From NCBI RefSeq assembly GCF_013407145.1, contig NZ_CP026993.1:744001-808000 (forward strand): a stretch of 64,000 nt of DNA, read 5' to 3'. Numbering within the stretch: position 1 is the stretch's first letter; the number at the start of each line of letters is the position of its first letter. The notes beneath the pieces are model-generated. The model was not told the origin of the DNA. It made no database searches and saw only the letters and a program-made list of their open reading frames with translations. Source of the stretch: Nitrosopumilus cobalaminigenes. GTDB taxonomy: Archaea; Thermoproteota; Nitrososphaeria; Nitrososphaerales; Nitrosopumilaceae. The translations under genes were made by a program, and so were the position numbers. Positions 58,094-64,000 of this stretch are shown here, piece after piece.

Positions 58094-59920
58094 TTGGATA
58101 AAAATCTCATCATCTCAAAGCTAGCAGATGCTATGGAACAATCAATAGGAGATAATGGAAGAAATCAATACCTCATAAAGAGACTAAATCAAAACAGAGA
58201 GATCATTAATTCTGATAGATTGTATTTAGAGAGAATTCTAGGGCTAGAGATTAGGGATATAGAATCTAAAAAAGATAAAACTGTTCAACATACTACAAGA
58301 AAAGATAAATCCGTTTTTTTAAATCCAAAAATGATAAAATGTTCTGAATGTAAAATTGAAATCAAGCTTGATGAGAAATCATCTAGGTACAAGAATAATT
58401 GGTATCATGAAATTTGTGTTAAGCCACTTTTAGAAAAAAACAAGATAATTCCTCCTAAAATTCAAGAAATTGACAAAAAGAAACCAGATCCAATTCAAAT
58501 TGGATTGACTGTGGCAATTGTTGGGTTTCTAGTAACTAGTGTGTATTTCATTTTAGGTCCATTAAGCATGATTGCGATGGGCATGGGTGGAGTTATCACA
58601 TTGTATCAAGTCTTAGGATCAACTGGAAAATTATATTCAAAAAATGAAACAGGTAGACGTGCACCTTCAATATTTTTAATATTTCTTTTAGGATCACCGT
58701 TCATCATAGGTACTATGATTGCGTATGAGGGATATACACTACTTGAATCACCTGTAAGAATAATTTTGTTATGGGCATTAACCATATCCTTTTGGTCAGT
58801 TATGTTGTTTGTTCCAATGGCAGTTGTTAGTAAGTATAGAGAAGATGCACAAGCAGATGTTAAAACATTTCCAAAAATTTCAGTTGTTATCCCTGCATAC
58901 AATGAAGAAAAAGTTATTGCAAATACAATTGAAGGTCTGTTAGAAACAAAATATCCTAACAAGGAAATAATATTTGTAGATGATGGCAGTAAAGATGCGA
59001 CATTGTCTATTGCATCAAGGTATAAGGATCAAATCCGTGTTCTTCATAAAGAAAATGGAGGAAAAGCTACTGCATTAAACTATGGTATGGTGTATGCTAA
59101 AGGGGAGATAATAGTAATTGTAGATGCAGACACTATCATTGGACGAAATGCCTTAAAAGAAATTGTGAAAGGTTTTGAAATAAATGAACATGTTGCAGCT
59201 GTTGCAGGAAATATCAAAGTAAGAAATAGAATGAATTGGATTACAAAATGTCAAGCATTGGAGTACATTACCGGAATCCAAATTATACGAAGAGCATTCG
59301 ATGTATTTGGTTCAATCACTATAGTTCCTGGTGCATTAGGTGCATTTAGAAAATCATTTTTGACTGAAGCCGGCGCATATGGTAAAGATACTATCGTGGA
59401 AGATTTTGATCAAACAATAAAACTTCTCAAAGCAGGATTAATCACTCAGGGAAGTAGCAAGGCTACAGCATATACTGAAGCGCCAAACACCCTGAAAGAT
59501 TTTGTTGCTCAAAGAAAGCGATGGTACAGAGGCAACATTCAAGTTTTAAAGCGTCATTCGGATGCACTCACAAATCCCAGATTCGGTTATTTGCAGCGAT
59601 TGTCATTACCATATCTTTTCTTAGGCATGGTTGTGACTCCAATAATTGGATTTATTGCCACAGCTAATGCCATTTTAGGAATTATCATGGGAGATGGATT
59701 GTATATTCTTCAAATTTCATTAATTTTCATAGTAGTACATTATTTGATGACTGCATTAGCACTAAGAATAGATGATGAAGATCCAAAATTGCTTTGGCAT
59801 ACAATCTTTTTGGTTTTTGGATTTAAACAGATTGTAGATTTCTTACTACTAAAAGCAATTATAGAACAATTGAGAAACAAGAAAGCTACTTGGACAAGTG
59901 CAAAAAGAATAGGTGTATAA
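58094..59920 (+). CDS. Membrane GT2 glycosyltransferase with N-terminal zinc ribbon
   Basis: A 608-residue protein. Residues 1-80 form a charged helical part, 82-115 a zinc-ribbon-like CSECKIEIK...WYHEIC. Membrane helices lie at about 135-175, 190-215 and 222-246. The GT-A domain at about 258-480 has VVIPAYNEEKVI, FVDDGSKD, IVDADT, VEDFD and QRKRWYRGN, the processive GT2 pattern. C-terminal helices (500-600) could form the extrusion path. It starts an operon with the deacetylase-like gene. The polysaccharide made is unknown. Confidence 0.85.
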   Translation: MDKNLIISKLADAMEQSIGDNGRNQYLIKRLNQNREIINSDRLYLERILGLEIRDIESKKDKTVQHTTRKDKSVFLNPKMIKCSECKIEIKLDEKSSRYKNNWYHEICVKPLLEKNKIIPPKIQEIDKKKPDPIQIGLTVAIVGFLVTSVYFILGPLSMIAMGMGGVITLYQVLGSTGKLYSKNETGRRAPSIFLIFLLGSPFIIGTMIAYEGYTLLESPVRIILLWALTISFWSVMLFVPMAVVSKYREDAQADVKTFPKISVVIPAYNEEKVIANTIEGLLETKYPNKEIIFVDDGSKDATLSIASRYKDQIRVLHKENGGKATALNYGMVYAKGEIIVIVDADTIIGRNALKEIVKGFEINEHVAAVAGNIKVRNRMNWITKCQALEYITGIQIIRRAFDVFGSITIVPGALGAFRKSFLTEAGAYGKDTIVEDFDQTIKLLKAGLITQGSSKATAYTEAPNTLKDFVAQRKRWYRGNIQVLKRHSDALTNPRFGYLQRLSLPYLFLGMVVTPIIGFIATANAILGIIMGDGLYILQISLIFIVVHYLMTALALRIDDEDPKLLWHTIFLVFGFKQIVDFLLLKAIIEQLRNKKATWTSAKRIGV

Positions 59921-62597
59921 ATTGAATGTTATTTTTTTAGTATCCCTAATCGCATTGTTTCTAAGTTTTTCAATATCTGTACAGAATTCATATGCAGAGG
60001 AAAATGAAACAATTGAAGTAGAAGTCAAATATACCAATGGAGACATTGCAGATTTCAATTCAATGAAAATTTTAGTTTATCAAGATTTTGAAAAAGAAGT
60101 ATTTTTAGAAAAGAAATTAACAAGTAACCCTGATTTTATTTCTGTTCCAGAAAATCATAGATATAAAATTGAAGTGTATGCAGACGGAGTTTATGGAGAT
60201 GTGGAATATATCCAATTAGAAGACAAATCTGAAAAAATTAACATAGATATTCCGTTATCTGGAGGTTTACAGTTTAATGTTTTTTATAAAAATGGAGAAA
60301 CTCCAATTGAAGGTGCAACTGTAATTCTAAAATCACATGATAATTCAGAATTAAGACGAGGGTTGACAAATGATGAAGGAAATACAATGCGTTATTGGAT
60401 TCAATCTACACATTTACAAAATGATCATTATATTGCTGATGTATATTTAGAAGACTTGTTTCTAACATCTTATTTTCCAATTAAGCTACTTCCAGGGATA
60501 GCTACTGATCAAAAAATTGTTACAGATATTCCAGAGATAATTGAAGAACTAGTTACAATTAACTTGTTTTCAGGCACAAAAAAGATTACCAGTAATGATG
60601 GAGATTATAAGATAATTTTAACAAATTTGAATGGAAATCATGTTGTTTCATCAGATGTGAATTTTAGAGGGGATGCACAATTTGGAAATTTGAAATCTGG
60701 AACATATGTTGTAAAAATAAAGTCTCAGAGTAATTTTGAGAATCTACTTTGGCCAAAAACAATAATTCATGTTACAGGAGACATAGATAATTTTAACATT
60801 TTCAAAAATCAAAATAACTTTAATTTAAAAGAAAATCCATTATTATCCTGTAATTGTATATCATTTCGATTAGATGACATACAGGATCATTGGTTGGCAG
60901 ATACACAGATAAGAATTATTAAATTATTTGCAGAAAAAAACATCCCATTGACAGTTGGAATTGTTGGTGAATTAATAGGAACAGATGAGAAATTAGTTTC
61001 AACAATTAAAGATCATGTTGAAAAAAATAATATTGAAATTGCAAATCATAGTTGGGATAATGATGCACTAGTTAATTTAAATGAGAATGTGCAAAAAGAG
61101 AAAATTCTAAATACAAATCAAAAGATCATAGAAATTTTTGAAACTACACCAACAATATTTGTACCGCCTCAAAATTTATACGATTCTGCTACAATTGACA
61201 TTTTAAAGGAAAATAATTTCTCATATTTAATTTCTCATGTAGATGATAATGATTCAATATTCATAGATGATGATTTATTTTATAATGTTCCTGCAACTAC
61301 TGAAACTGGAATACTGATTGATTCAACTCAATGGAAACTACATGACAAAGAATATGTCAAAAGTAAAATAATTGAAAATTTGGACACCAAGGGATATTCA
61401 ATAGTAATGATTCACCCACAAGAATTTTCATTAAATGATCAAGGGGAATACGACATACCGAATGAAGAATCTCTCGAAATGCTAAGTCAACTATTAGATG
61501 AAGTTGTATTACTGGACTCTAATATTGTCAATATTAGTAAAATTGAGCCTACAGAAGCGATTATTGAACAAGATGTTATTGAAGAAGAGGTAATTGATAC
61601 ATGCAATTGTGTGGCATTTAGGTTGGATGGAGTGCAAGATTATTGGCTAAATGATGTTCAAATGGAAATAATGAGTGCATTTGCAGAAAAAAATACACCA
61701 TTAACTATAGGAATAATAGCAAATGCTTTTGGAAATGATCCAAAAATTACTGAATTTGTGAATAGCCAATTAGAAAATAGAAATTCGGAATTAGAGATTG
61801 CAACTAAAGGAATAGGGTTAACGCCATTTACAAATTATAATAAAGAAGAACAAAATCAAAATCTAAAAGATTCTATTGATATGATCAATCTTAACATAGG
61901 AGTTAAACCCAAAATATTCATTCCGCCAGATAACAAATTTAATTCTGATACATTAGAAATCCTACAAGAAAACAACATCACACACATTAGTGTAAGTTTA
62001 GTTAATGGGGATTCACCACCATTTCAGTTTACAGGTGAAGAAATATACAGATATCCTCAAACAACTGCTACTGGAAAATATGTTTCATCAAAAAATATTT
62101 TTGAAGGAGTAGAAAACCAACAAATAGTTTCTGAAACAACTCAGAGCATTAAGAATTATGGGTTTTCAGTAATTTCTATTCAGCCTCAAGAATTTTCAAA
62201 TGTAGAAAATTCCACATATGTTAATTCATTTAATGAAAAACAAATTGATGAATTAAAAAAATTAATTGATGAATTAAACTCTATGGAATATAGAATTGTT
62301 CCAATTGGAAAAATAAACTCCAATCTAGTTGTGTCAGTTCCCGAATGGATTAAAAACAATGCAGGGTGGTGGGCAGATGGGTCTATCGATGATAAAACAT
62401 TTGTTCAAGGAATAGAGTATTTGGTAAAAGAAGAAATCATCAATGTAACTGAACAATCAGAAATATCTAATTCAGAACAAAATGTTCCCGAATGGATTAA
62501 AAACAATGCAGGGTGGTGGGCAGATGGGTCTATCGATGATAAAACATTTGTTCAAGGAATAGAGTATTTGGTAAAAGTTGGAATTATTTCGTATTAA
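59913..62597 (+). CDS. Secreted protein with two NodB-like domains, second degenerate, plus surface repeats
   Basis: An 894-residue protein with a signal peptide at 1-28 (from GTG 59913; TTG 59922 also possible). Beta-rich region 30-300, first polysaccharide-deacetylase-like domain at about 312-550 (FRLDDIQ, ANHSWD, FVPPQ), and a second at about 563-790 (FRLDGVQ; the HxxxH region reads ATKGIGL). Two WIKNNAGWWADG repeats end the protein. The first domain keeps the Asp-Asp and His for metal; the second lost both. It overlaps the glycosyltransferase gene by eight bases. Confidence 0.78.
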   Translation: MYKLNVIFLVSLIALFLSFSISVQNSYAEENETIEVEVKYTNGDIADFNSMKILVYQDFEKEVFLEKKLTSNPDFISVPENHRYKIEVYADGVYGDVEYIQLEDKSEKINIDIPLSGGLQFNVFYKNGETPIEGATVILKSHDNSELRRGLTNDEGNTMRYWIQSTHLQNDHYIADVYLEDLFLTSYFPIKLLPGIATDQKIVTDIPEIIEELVTINLFSGTKKITSNDGDYKIILTNLNGNHVVSSDVNFRGDAQFGNLKSGTYVVKIKSQSNFENLLWPKTIIHVTGDIDNFNIFKNQNNFNLKENPLLSCNCISFRLDDIQDHWLADTQIRIIKLFAEKNIPLTVGIVGELIGTDEKLVSTIKDHVEKNNIEIANHSWDNDALVNLNENVQKEKILNTNQKIIEIFETTPTIFVPPQNLYDSATIDILKENNFSYLISHVDDNDSIFIDDDLFYNVPATTETGILIDSTQWKLHDKEYVKSKIIENLDTKGYSIVMIHPQEFSLNDQGEYDIPNEESLEMLSQLLDEVVLLDSNIVNISKIEPTEAIIEQDVIEEEVIDTCNCVAFRLDGVQDYWLNDVQMEIMSAFAEKNTPLTIGIIANAFGNDPKITEFVNSQLENRNSELEIATKGIGLTPFTNYNKEEQNQNLKDSIDMINLNIGVKPKIFIPPDNKFNSDTLEILQENNITHISVSLVNGDSPPFQFTGEEIYRYPQTTATGKYVSSKNIFEGVENQQIVSETTQSIKNYGFSVISIQPQEFSNVENSTYVNSFNEKQIDELKKLIDELNSMEYRIVPIGKINSNLVVSVPEWIKNNAGWWADGSIDDKTFVQGIEYLVKEEIINVTEQSEISNSEQNVPEWIKNNAGWWADGSIDDKTFVQGIEYLVKVGIISY
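62337..62577 (+). repeat. Two exact 94-bp direct repeats encoding the WIKNNAGWWADG module
   Basis: 62337-62430 and 62484-62577 are identical over 94 bases, offset by 147. They encode about 31 residues each, a module I also associate with other secreted thaumarchaeal proteins. Perfect DNA identity shows a recent duplication or conversion. Confidence 0.95.
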
Positions 62598-63540
62598 CTA
62601 CTTTGTAATTCATGCTTGATTTCCAACGAGCATCTTCTAATTTGAATTTGTTTTCACATTTCAAACAAATGTAACTAGTAGATATTTCAGGGAAAAATTC
62701 ATTACAATCATTACAAGTGTAATGATTTTGCATGACTCTATAATCAACACCTAATGCTTTAATCTCTTTTTTACAGTTAGGGCATGCATCATTTTGATAT
62801 GTGTTTTCTTCAGAGATATTTCCACAGTCATAGTGTTCAATTAGTTTGCCCAATTTGAAATTTGATCCTTTACAATTTGGGCAATAAAATACTTGAGAAG
62901 TACGAATAGAATCACATTGATTGCATGCAATTTCTTTTTTGTTATCTAATTGAACTATTTTCCCTTCATTTTCTAATTTTTTTAAATATGTTTCAATGAA
63001 ATCATTTGAGAATCCTAAAATTTGTATGATTTTATTTAGACTAATTTGATGTGTTGTTTTTAAAATAAAATTAATATGTTCAACAATTTTTTCTTCATCA
63101 ATATCATCATCTTTTGGTAATTCTGGTTGTTTTGATTTTTTTTCAAGATAAGATTCTTCTTCTTCTAAAATGGTGATAATTTTTTCAACTTCATTAAAGT
63201 GAATTGGTTTTTGTAAATAGTGATATGCACCTAAACCAATTACTTCTTTGATACTATCTTCTTCTTTACCATTTGCAGTTTCAATTATGATTTTTGTAAA
63301 TGGTTTAATCGGTAAAATTTGCGACATGATAGAATTTGCAGTGCTATCAGGAAGATTGTAGTCAAGGAAGATCAAAGGCGTGATGTCTTTTTGAACCATT
63401 TCTTTGAATAGAGAAATACCTGCATGGCCAGATTCAGCAGTTTTGATGTCTTCATAGCCTAACTTTCTCATAAATTCAGCCAATAGCATTCCTACAGCAG
63501 GGCTATCCTCAATTATCAATACTGAACCTTTGGAACCCAA
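62584..63540 (-). CDS. Response regulator with zinc-ribbon (TackOD1-like) output region
   Basis: A 318-residue protein. Receiver domain 1-125 with acidic pair Glu11-Asp12, phosphoacceptor Asp60 in IFLDYNLPD and Lys in LQKPIHF. A linker helix follows, then a small winged-helix-like part (150-205), and a C-terminal region with several Cys pairs (CNQC, CPNC, CPNC, CNDC, CLKC). These fit the thaumarchaeal output domain 1 described for such regulators. It starts with TTG and may control the polysaccharide genes it faces. Convergent overlap of 14 bases with the deacetylase-like gene. Confidence 0.8.
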   Translation of the reverse strand: MGSKGSVLIIEDSPAVGMLLAEFMRKLGYEDIKTAESGHAGISLFKEMVQKDITPLIFLDYNLPDSTANSIMSQILPIKPFTKIIIETANGKEEDSIKEVIGLGAYHYLQKPIHFNEVEKIITILEEEESYLEKKSKQPELPKDDDIDEEKIVEHINFILKTTHQISLNKIIQILGFSNDFIETYLKKLENEGKIVQLDNKKEIACNQCDSIRTSQVFYCPNCKGSNFKLGKLIEHYDCGNISEENTYQNDACPNCKKEIKALGVDYRVMQNHYTCNDCNEFFPEISTSYICLKCENKFKLEDARWKSSMNYKVVNTK

Positions 63541-63612: not shown

Positions 63613-64000
63613 ATGAATTTTTTCAGTATTTGTGGAATATTTCTATTATTCGCAGTTGGTCTTGGAATAAATTCAACATATGCGCAAATTGATCCTAATT
63701 CAGACATTGAATTTTTTCAAACTGGAGAAATACAAACAGTAGAAAATCAATTTCTAATCAGTAATGAATTTGAAATTAGAGAATTTTTTAATGGAAATAT
63801 CTTACGTGTTTCAGGTCAAACCATAGAAGGATTTCCATACATCATATATTCAAAAGTTAATGATGATAAATTAGACGTATTTGGGAAAATTTTCATAAGT
63901 GGGAAATTTGTCAAATTGGTTTTTAACGAAATTAATAATAATCAAGAATCAGTACCAGAACAAAAACAAGACAATCTATCAATAATAGTGAAATATTCTC
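63613..64000 (+). CDS. Secreted protein of unknown function, N-terminal part
   Basis: Open frame from ATG 63613 to the window end, about 129 codons. Signal peptide at residues 1-24 (FSICGIFLLFAVGLGINSTYAQ). The mature part is beta-rich with EFEIREFFNGNILRVSG and YIIYSKVNDD. Truncated by the window. Divergent from the response regulator. Confidence 0.6.
   Translation, partial: MNFFSICGIFLLFAVGLGINSTYAQIDPNSDIEFFQTGEIQTVENQFLISNEFEIREFFNGNILRVSGQTIEGFPYIIYSKVNDDKLDVFGKIFISGKFVKLVFNEINNNQESVPEQKQDNLSIIVKYS

Follow-up and report, generated by a model that had tools for sequence, protein, structure and literature searches.

In bacteria, the PgaC/PgaD pair of the PNAG system is controlled by c-di-GMP. 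The deacetylases of PNAG systems are described as having a permuted NodB2 order, in which motif MT5 comes first, and another arginine substitutes for the MT3 arginine in NodB2 enzymes (PMC10967932). CtCE4, which has one metal histidine, is active on acetylxylan and reported inactive on chito-oligosaccharides (PMC6282417), and BA0330 and BA0331 bind peptidoglycan and showed no deacetylase activity (PMC4505593). The function of TackOD1, an output domain of archaeal response regulators, was called obscure in a 2018 census (PMC5847659).

Ammonia-oxidizing archaea (AOA) drive much of marine nitrification; to our knowledge, their surface structures besides the S-layer, and their attachment decisions, are largely open. 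Kerou et al. 2016 is reportedly the work cited for the EPS genes of N. viennensis. In this species, genes for glycosyltransferases (GTs) and exported polysaccharide deacetylases, often clustered, were upregulated on air-exposed filters, so both kinds of gene have already been noted together in a soil AOA; the same source says that Nitrosopumilales produce little EPS (PMC11561398). In an AOA biofilm study, biofilm candidate genes, CAZymes included, were not differentially expressed apart from adhesion genes, and the word deacetylase does not occur in its main text (PMC12448741). AOA S-layer proteins are N-glycosylated (PMC12153357). Neither a link between TackOD1 and a synthase nor degenerate NodB domains of AOA were found in the available parts of the literature searched, a scope that leaves Kerou et al. 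2016 outside.

The window analyzed here is a 64,000-nucleotide stretch of the Nitrosopumilus cobalaminigenes genome, which is a single contig of 1,563,356 bases. We consider it probable (roughly 60%) that the window carries a three-gene, regulated, synthase-dependent exopolysaccharide module consisting of a synthase, a one-histidine deacetylase with a dead guiding domain, and TackOD1 control.

The synthase and its gene neighborhood

The first gene (58094 to 59920, + strand) encodes a 608-aa GT2 membrane synthase with a TTG start, assigned by Pfam, NCBIfam, and motifs. It is followed on the same strand by the gene for a secreted protein with two NodB domains (59922 to 62597; probable start TTG 59922, the longest ORF, of 894 aa, running from GTG 59913). 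The third gene, for a response regulator (62584 to 63540, − strand), is convergent with the NodB gene and overlaps it by 14 nt; it falls outside the interval from 58094 to 62597 to which the earlier, sequence-only reading was confined. That reading had proposed a GT/deacetylase pair with overlapping genes. Both ORFs are present, but whether they overlap depends on which start codon is used. A TTG at 59922, in frame, lies 1 nt past the GT stop, and an ATG with identical spacing is found in 3 of the 9 relatives inspected (L112, L122, and L127); therefore, the two genes probably abut. Overlap as a sign of coupling was dropped, the 1-nt spacing being at least as likely.

In two GT-less relatives, G046 and G059, a homologue of the gene at 63613 sits 151 and 127 bp, respectively, from GAPDH, compared to an interval of 6.9 kb in the window. 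Because GAPDH nearly adjoins this homologue, the GT, NodB, and regulator genes are missing there as a unit. The genus mates G092, G114, G119, and G143 did not show a clean pattern of cassette absence. In G092, a GAPDH-like gene (C1:745423-746468) is broken into two pieces, with one TAA.

The synthase matches PF00535 (3.2e-35) and PF13641 (2.4e-32) and has the full processive-type D, DxD, ED, QxxRW set in the form of DDGS, DADT, VEDFD, and QRKRW. Among 68 GT ORF rows, some of them truncated or split, strict motif misses numbered 5 for DDGS, 3 for DAD, 2 for ED, and 3 for QxxRW. The GT2 domain (aa 258 to 480) is preceded by three or four hydrophobic segments and followed by about three more (stretches at approximately 132 to 171, 190 to 212, 220 to 247, 503 to 560, and 571 to 590 in a simple hydropathy scan). 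Its PDB sequence matches include chondroitin, cellulose, and hyaluronan synthases and other GT2 enzymes (best E 3.1e-15). The best NCBIfam model is PgaC_IcaA (TIGR03937) at 206.7 bits, about half of its cut-off of 422.3, followed by TIGR03111 (126.3 bits) and NodC (87.1 bits; cut-off 550), all below their cut-offs. AlphaFold models built from two-row alignments (window plus L011) were unusable, with a pLDDT of 34.7 (GT) and 40.6 (NodB protein).

The QRKRW motif, the synthase-like layout, and PgaC_IcaA as the best named family bear out the earlier call of a processive-type GT2 membrane enzyme. A non-processive enzyme making a lipid-linked or S-layer glycan, which the NodB protein would then trim, agrees with the N-glycosylation of AOA S-layer proteins (PMC12153357), and dolichol-type models do match the GT weakly. 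However, these matches reach only 43.1 bits for AglG and 38 bits for AglJ (NCBIfam), and the QRKRW motif, the membrane layout, and the PDB matches point to a synthase, which makes the non-processive alternative unlikely. The sequence-only reading had itself named a best match to dolichol-type or non-processive families, together with relatives lacking a deacetylase, as grounds for giving it up. Neither was found when this was examined, since a NodB partner accompanies 58 of 63 synthases.

These counts come from a survey of 151 genomes of the Nitrosopumilaceae, of which 91 had PF01522 (E up to 0.001) and 75 had a match to the GT (E up to 1e-20), the GT matches being spread over 12 of the 22 genera of the family. 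The strong GT set comprises 67 genes at BLAST E <1e-100, with a split gene counted once; it includes the named MAG locus L011 and excludes the window. Nitrosopumilus sp. ECS24A2 was a relative found in the contig search. A codirectional NodB gene lies no more than 1 kb downstream in 58 of the 63 GTs that have at least 1.3 kb of downstream DNA, and in 36 of these 58 the gap is at most 30 nt or the ORFs overlap; all counts in this analysis are raised by the relatedness of the genomes and by shared synteny. The search for the pair in other archaea that had been suggested thus returned a deacetylase gene behind most Nitrosopumilaceae synthases. The five GTs without one are L072, L110, L102, L107, and the second GT of L094; at L107, a NodB gene lies upstream of the GT and is divergent. 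More distant GTs (26 to 30% identity) at L141, L142, L145, and L146 also adjoin a NodB gene. At six loci of one genus (L085, L096, L097, L099, L100, and L101), a gene for a protein of ∼260 to 295 aa (ICGDKLCSE...) stands between the GT and NodB genes. It was rejected as a part of the system, being on the opposite strand to the GT in 6 of 6 cases.

The first 130 residues of the synthase form a regulatory-looking module (58094 to 58483, + strand) that combines a helical GDxGR..YLE motif with a C-x2-C-x18-H-x2-C metal site at aa 83 to 108. All 37 orthologue ORFs of at least 590 aa have this finger exactly, as do 3 of 30 shorter ones. It had been described as an N-terminal zinc ribbon, a label that was not upheld, as the spacing is not the classical one and resembles that of one half of a LIM domain. 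A full double LIM has eight ligands, compared to four in the GT finger, and no LIM family was among the Pfam matches (E up to 1) of this protein. A homologue of the module (E 9.6e-17, 39% identity, query 3 to 117) occurs on a KaiC-like ATPase of the same genome (L153; G000 C1:868998-869324), and a coiled-coil protein (L154), also of this genome, matches the helical motif more weakly (E 1.4e-6). Because it recurs on these proteins, the N-terminal motif and finger together look like a signaling module.

State of the two NodB domains

The secreted protein matches PF01522 (3.8e-21) over two stretches, and both matches to this family in the whole 1.56-Mb genome (E up to 1) lie within it. Its sole hydrophobic stretch in a simple hydropathy scan, aa 1 to 26, is in signal-peptide position. 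Domain 1 (60846 to 61505, + strand; aa 312 to 531 counted from GTG 59913) is the candidate catalytic domain. Its motifs FRLDDIQD, NHSWDN, FVPPQ, and MIHPQ retain the Asp-Asp of MT1, the first His of MT2, and the His of MT5 (D, D, H, H), whereas the second metal His of MT2 is replaced by Asn and the Arg of MT3 by Val. Domain 2 (61599 to 62273, + strand; aa 563 to 787) is degenerate: FRLDG and IQPQ are left as remnants, the MT2 His is gone, and at the six tested CE4 positions it reads D-G, K, L, and Q apart from MT3, which falls short of the catalytic set. Despite this loss in the window copy, domain 2 is under purifying selection. In pairwise comparisons with four relatives (NG86), dN/dS was 0.15 to 0.30 for domain 2 and 0.12 to 0.28 for domain 1, rough figures because dS is often >1. 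Two C-terminal repeats (VPEWIKNNAGWWADGSIDDKTFVQGIEYLV..; 62325 to 62594, + strand) complete the protein. The repeat is ∼38 aa long (PEWIKNNAGWWADGSI..FVQGIEYLV), has no Pfam match, and has 25 other matches across the genome; it may be a surface-anchoring tail.

The order of motifs bears on the likeness to bacterial PNAG systems that the sequence-only reading had drawn. In domain 1, MT5 comes after MT1 to MT3, and the remnants in domain 2 follow the same order, so neither is permuted. The likeness holds insofar as the GT has the GT2 motifs, has PgaC_IcaA as its closest named family, and has a deacetylase partner; it breaks down at the missed TIGR03937 cut-off, the unpermuted NodB order, and the loss of catalytic residues from domain 2. 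A true PNAG system (PgaC/IcaA with PgaB/IcaB), acquired from bacteria, would explain why TIGR03937 is the top NCBIfam match. It was rejected as very unlikely, on the half-cut-off score and on the NodB order compared to that reported for PNAG deacetylases (PMC10967932). Moreover, no PgaD/IcaD-like partner was seen among the window ORFs, which were inspected by eye and not with a PgaD model, and the presence of the GT in 12 of 22 genera argues for old descent.

Scoring the 59 GT-linked NodB proteins, the window included, revealed several trends (4 were split or cut and were left unscored; a domain was called degenerate when at least one of Asp, Asp, the first MT2 His, and the MT5 His was lost). 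First, the first domains of two-domain proteins keep Asp, Asp, His, and the MT5 His in 26 of 26 cases; the second metal His is retained in 6, and the other 20, including the window protein, have Asn there. Second, the second domains are degenerate in all 26. Third, the 29 one-domain proteins comprise 22 degenerate ones, 6 with a single metal His, and 1 complete one. Finally, the MT3 Arg is absent from 106 of 106 NodB domains in a FastTree tree. In this tree, which was midpoint-rooted and whose supports were not inspected, the first domains cluster together, and the second domains and one-domain proteins fall into several other groups. Six of the degenerate one-domain loci (L073, L076, and L089 to L092) have, in addition to the degenerate downstream protein, a separate, divergent, complete NodB gene across the GT. 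At L106, the separate NodB gene beside the GT is truncated, and the stretches fetched for the other degenerate one-domain loci held no full-length complete NodB gene. Because a full-length complete NodB gene accompanies only 6 of the 22 degenerate proteins in the one-domain set of 29, deacetylation cannot be universal at GT loci.

Domain 1 itself may be inactive, given the missing MT3 Arg (106 of 106) and the missing second metal His (20 of 26). This raises the question of whether the NodB protein is an enzyme at all: beside the same synthase module, both domains might be pseudo-deacetylases that bind or organize the polymer or the cell wall, in the manner of BA0330/BA0331, for which peptidoglycan binding but no deacetylase activity was observed (PMC4505593). 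The degenerate one-domain proteins agree with such a role. On the other side stand the conservation of Asp, Asp, His, and the MT5 His in every first domain, the full metal triad in 6 of 26, the separate complete NodB gene at six degenerate loci, and the activity of the one-histidine CtCE4 (PMC6282417), to which the NodB protein has its best sequence match in the PDB (2c71, E 1.6e-5). Taken together, we regard a purely non-enzymatic NodB protein as a real but rather doubtful alternative to the one-histidine deacetylase.

Linkage of TackOD1 and the synthase

The response regulator has a receiver domain (REC, aa 7 to 122; 57.7 bits, cut-off 30.2), a winged-helix match that is FeoC-like and barely over its cut-off, and a TackOD1 domain (PF18551, aa 169 to 314; 84.9 bits, cut-off 32). 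A BLAST search placed a regulator homologue no more than 5 kb from the GT at 40 of 66 loci. With the Pfam model, TackOD1 was found within 6 kb of 42 of the 67 strong GT matches, compared to 1.03 expected if the 115 TackOD1 copies of the 64 GT genomes were scattered over 1.6 Mb each. Of the 64 GT genomes, 63 encode TackOD1, compared to 16 of the remaining 87 genomes (Fisher p 6e-26, a descriptive value because the genomes are related), and it was absent from 14 of 14 control genomes. For the other 25 of the 67 matches, no TackOD1 was found within 6 kb, some of these lying on short contigs; the distance is ∼20 kb in G008, G044, and G091 and 199 to 242 kb in G017, G050, G062, and G076. The long TackOD1 copy of the host genome adjoins a gene for a T2SSE-type secretion ATPase (L175), which agrees with the known pilus association.

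The flanking GAPDH-CNNM-THRS genes are also conserved in the genus of the window, and many adjacent TackOD1-GT cases are therefore not independent. The regulator could thus be a passive neighbor retained by synteny, but several observations make this very unlikely. First, at least four gene orders link the regulator and the GT. The window, L011, and L112 to L131 have GT-NodB plus a convergent regulator (except L119 and L121, with none in their stretch); L080, L081, L087, and L088 have GT-NodB-regulator in one direction; L109, L111, and L132 to L137 have regulator-GT-NodB; L072, L110, L102, L107, and L094 have a GT plus convergent regulator with no NodB gene between; and L074, at a contig edge, is divergent. 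Second, proximity depends on ORF length: 44 of 78 TackOD1 ORFs of 290 to 350 aa are near a GT, versus 1 of 49 ORFs longer than 350 aa (the remaining 6 are shorter). Third, the cassette is missing as a unit in two relatives. Finally, regulator and GT are also found linked in other families of the class.

Two side observations concern long open frames. At L140 (G119), a protein of 1959 aa that joins NHL/SMP-30-like beta-propeller repeats to a GT2 domain at its C terminus is encoded next to a TackOD1 regulator, and TackOD1 is also found beside the GT matches of G041 and G143, which sit in similarly long frames.

In a class survey of 200 genomes, 12 genomes outside the family had a GT match of 1e-40 or better. 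All of these GTs except that of G195 have a TackOD1 at a distance of at most 1.3 kb (11 of 12). In 10 of the 11 cases, the TackOD1 gene immediately precedes the GT gene and is codirectional with it; G171 has it in opposite orientation, separated from the GT by a small-GTPase gene. A Ras-like small-GTPase gene also stands beside the TackOD1-GT2 pair at L164 (5610-6146; Pfam for this locus only) and L167 (1713-2294). Starting from TackOD1, one locus was inspected in each of 20 further class genomes, so that loci were examined in all but 10 of the 41 out-of-family genomes with TackOD1. A more diverged GT2 adjoins in 6 of the 20 (L179, L181 to L184, and L195; three checked by Pfam), and at L179 the GT2 is followed by a NodB protein. 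TackOD1 adjoins a T2SSE-type ATPase at L176 and L177 and a weak pilin match at L185, and no clear partner was seen at the remaining loci of the 20. The pilus-type ATPase next to TackOD1 at L176 (7830-11213, G160) contains an intein. Among the out-of-family loci, NodB genes were found only at L158 and L179 (the latter within a 3.5-kb stretch around TackOD1), suggesting that the pairing of regulator and synthase predates the NodB partner or is independent of it. A receiver domain was detected in 2 of 9 distant TackOD1 proteins scanned. Outside the class, the best-scoring 29 loci (L196 to L225 without L217; 1.5-kb flanks) showed a GT2 in 5 and a pilus ATPase in 1, and the linkage is thus weaker at the phylum level.

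Proposed working of the module and comparison with known systems

In the three-gene module that we favor, the GT2 enzyme would polymerize an activated sugar in the cytosol, most likely an N-acetylhexosamine, and thread the chain outward through the membrane portion of the enzyme itself. The NodB protein would be positioned at the polymer exit, where domain 1 may strip acetyl groups using a one-histidine, CtCE4-like metal site and domain 2 would serve as a catalytically dead polymer-binding or guiding module, the C-terminal repeats perhaps tethering the protein to the cell surface. The response regulator would control the module, either at the transcriptional level or through the N-terminal finger module of the GT. 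The filter response of N. viennensis favors this reading (PMC11561398); the unchanged expression of most biofilm candidate genes (PMC12448741) and the little EPS attributed to Nitrosopumilales (PMC11561398) speak against it. A bolder and more tentative proposal is that TackOD1 is the archaeal control element of processive polysaccharide synthases. Its zinc-rich output domain, under a receiver or other input, might switch GT2 enzymes as c-di-GMP does in bacteria and talk to the LIM-half-like finger where one is present, with the dead NodB domain guiding the polymer at the exit. The cassette offers a compact, testable candidate for surface building or attachment in AOA, the linkage offers TackOD1 a functional context other than pili, and degenerate deacetylase domains are seen to be in conserved use next to polymer synthases.

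Like PgaC/IcaA with PgaB/IcaB, the locus places a GT2 membrane synthase beside a secreted NodB protein. Unlike them, it has a sub-cut-off GT, an unpermuted NodB order, a degenerate second NodB domain, a LIM-half-like finger, and a TackOD1 neighbor. With NodC/NodB and the chitin, hyaluronan, and cellulose synthases it shares the GT2 motifs and synthase layout, NodB being the named deacetylase family; it differs in that the GT stays far below the NodC cut-off. Domain 1 resembles CtCE4 (Clostridium thermocellum) in its Asp and single metal His, whereas CtCE4 has Tyr at the Asn position, retains the MT3 Arg, and is an acetylxylan esterase. BA0330/BA0331 of Bacillus anthracis are likewise NodB proteins without detected deacetylase activity, but BA0330 keeps an Asp-His-His zinc site, whereas domain 2 has lost both His residues. 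The regulator has the REC-wHTH-TackOD1 architecture (PF18551, arCOG06883) of the 2018 census (PMC5847659); unlike the TackOD1 proteins reported from type IV pilus loci (PMC4858521, PMC5847659), it is tied to a GT2 synthase. The REC-BcsA-like fusion MTH_548 of Methanobacteriaceae also joins a receiver domain to a cellulose-synthase-like GT2, but as one polypeptide, for which the census passage mentions no TackOD1 (PMC5847659). We read the locus as a probable variant of synthase-dependent exopolysaccharide systems and not as a PNAG operon.
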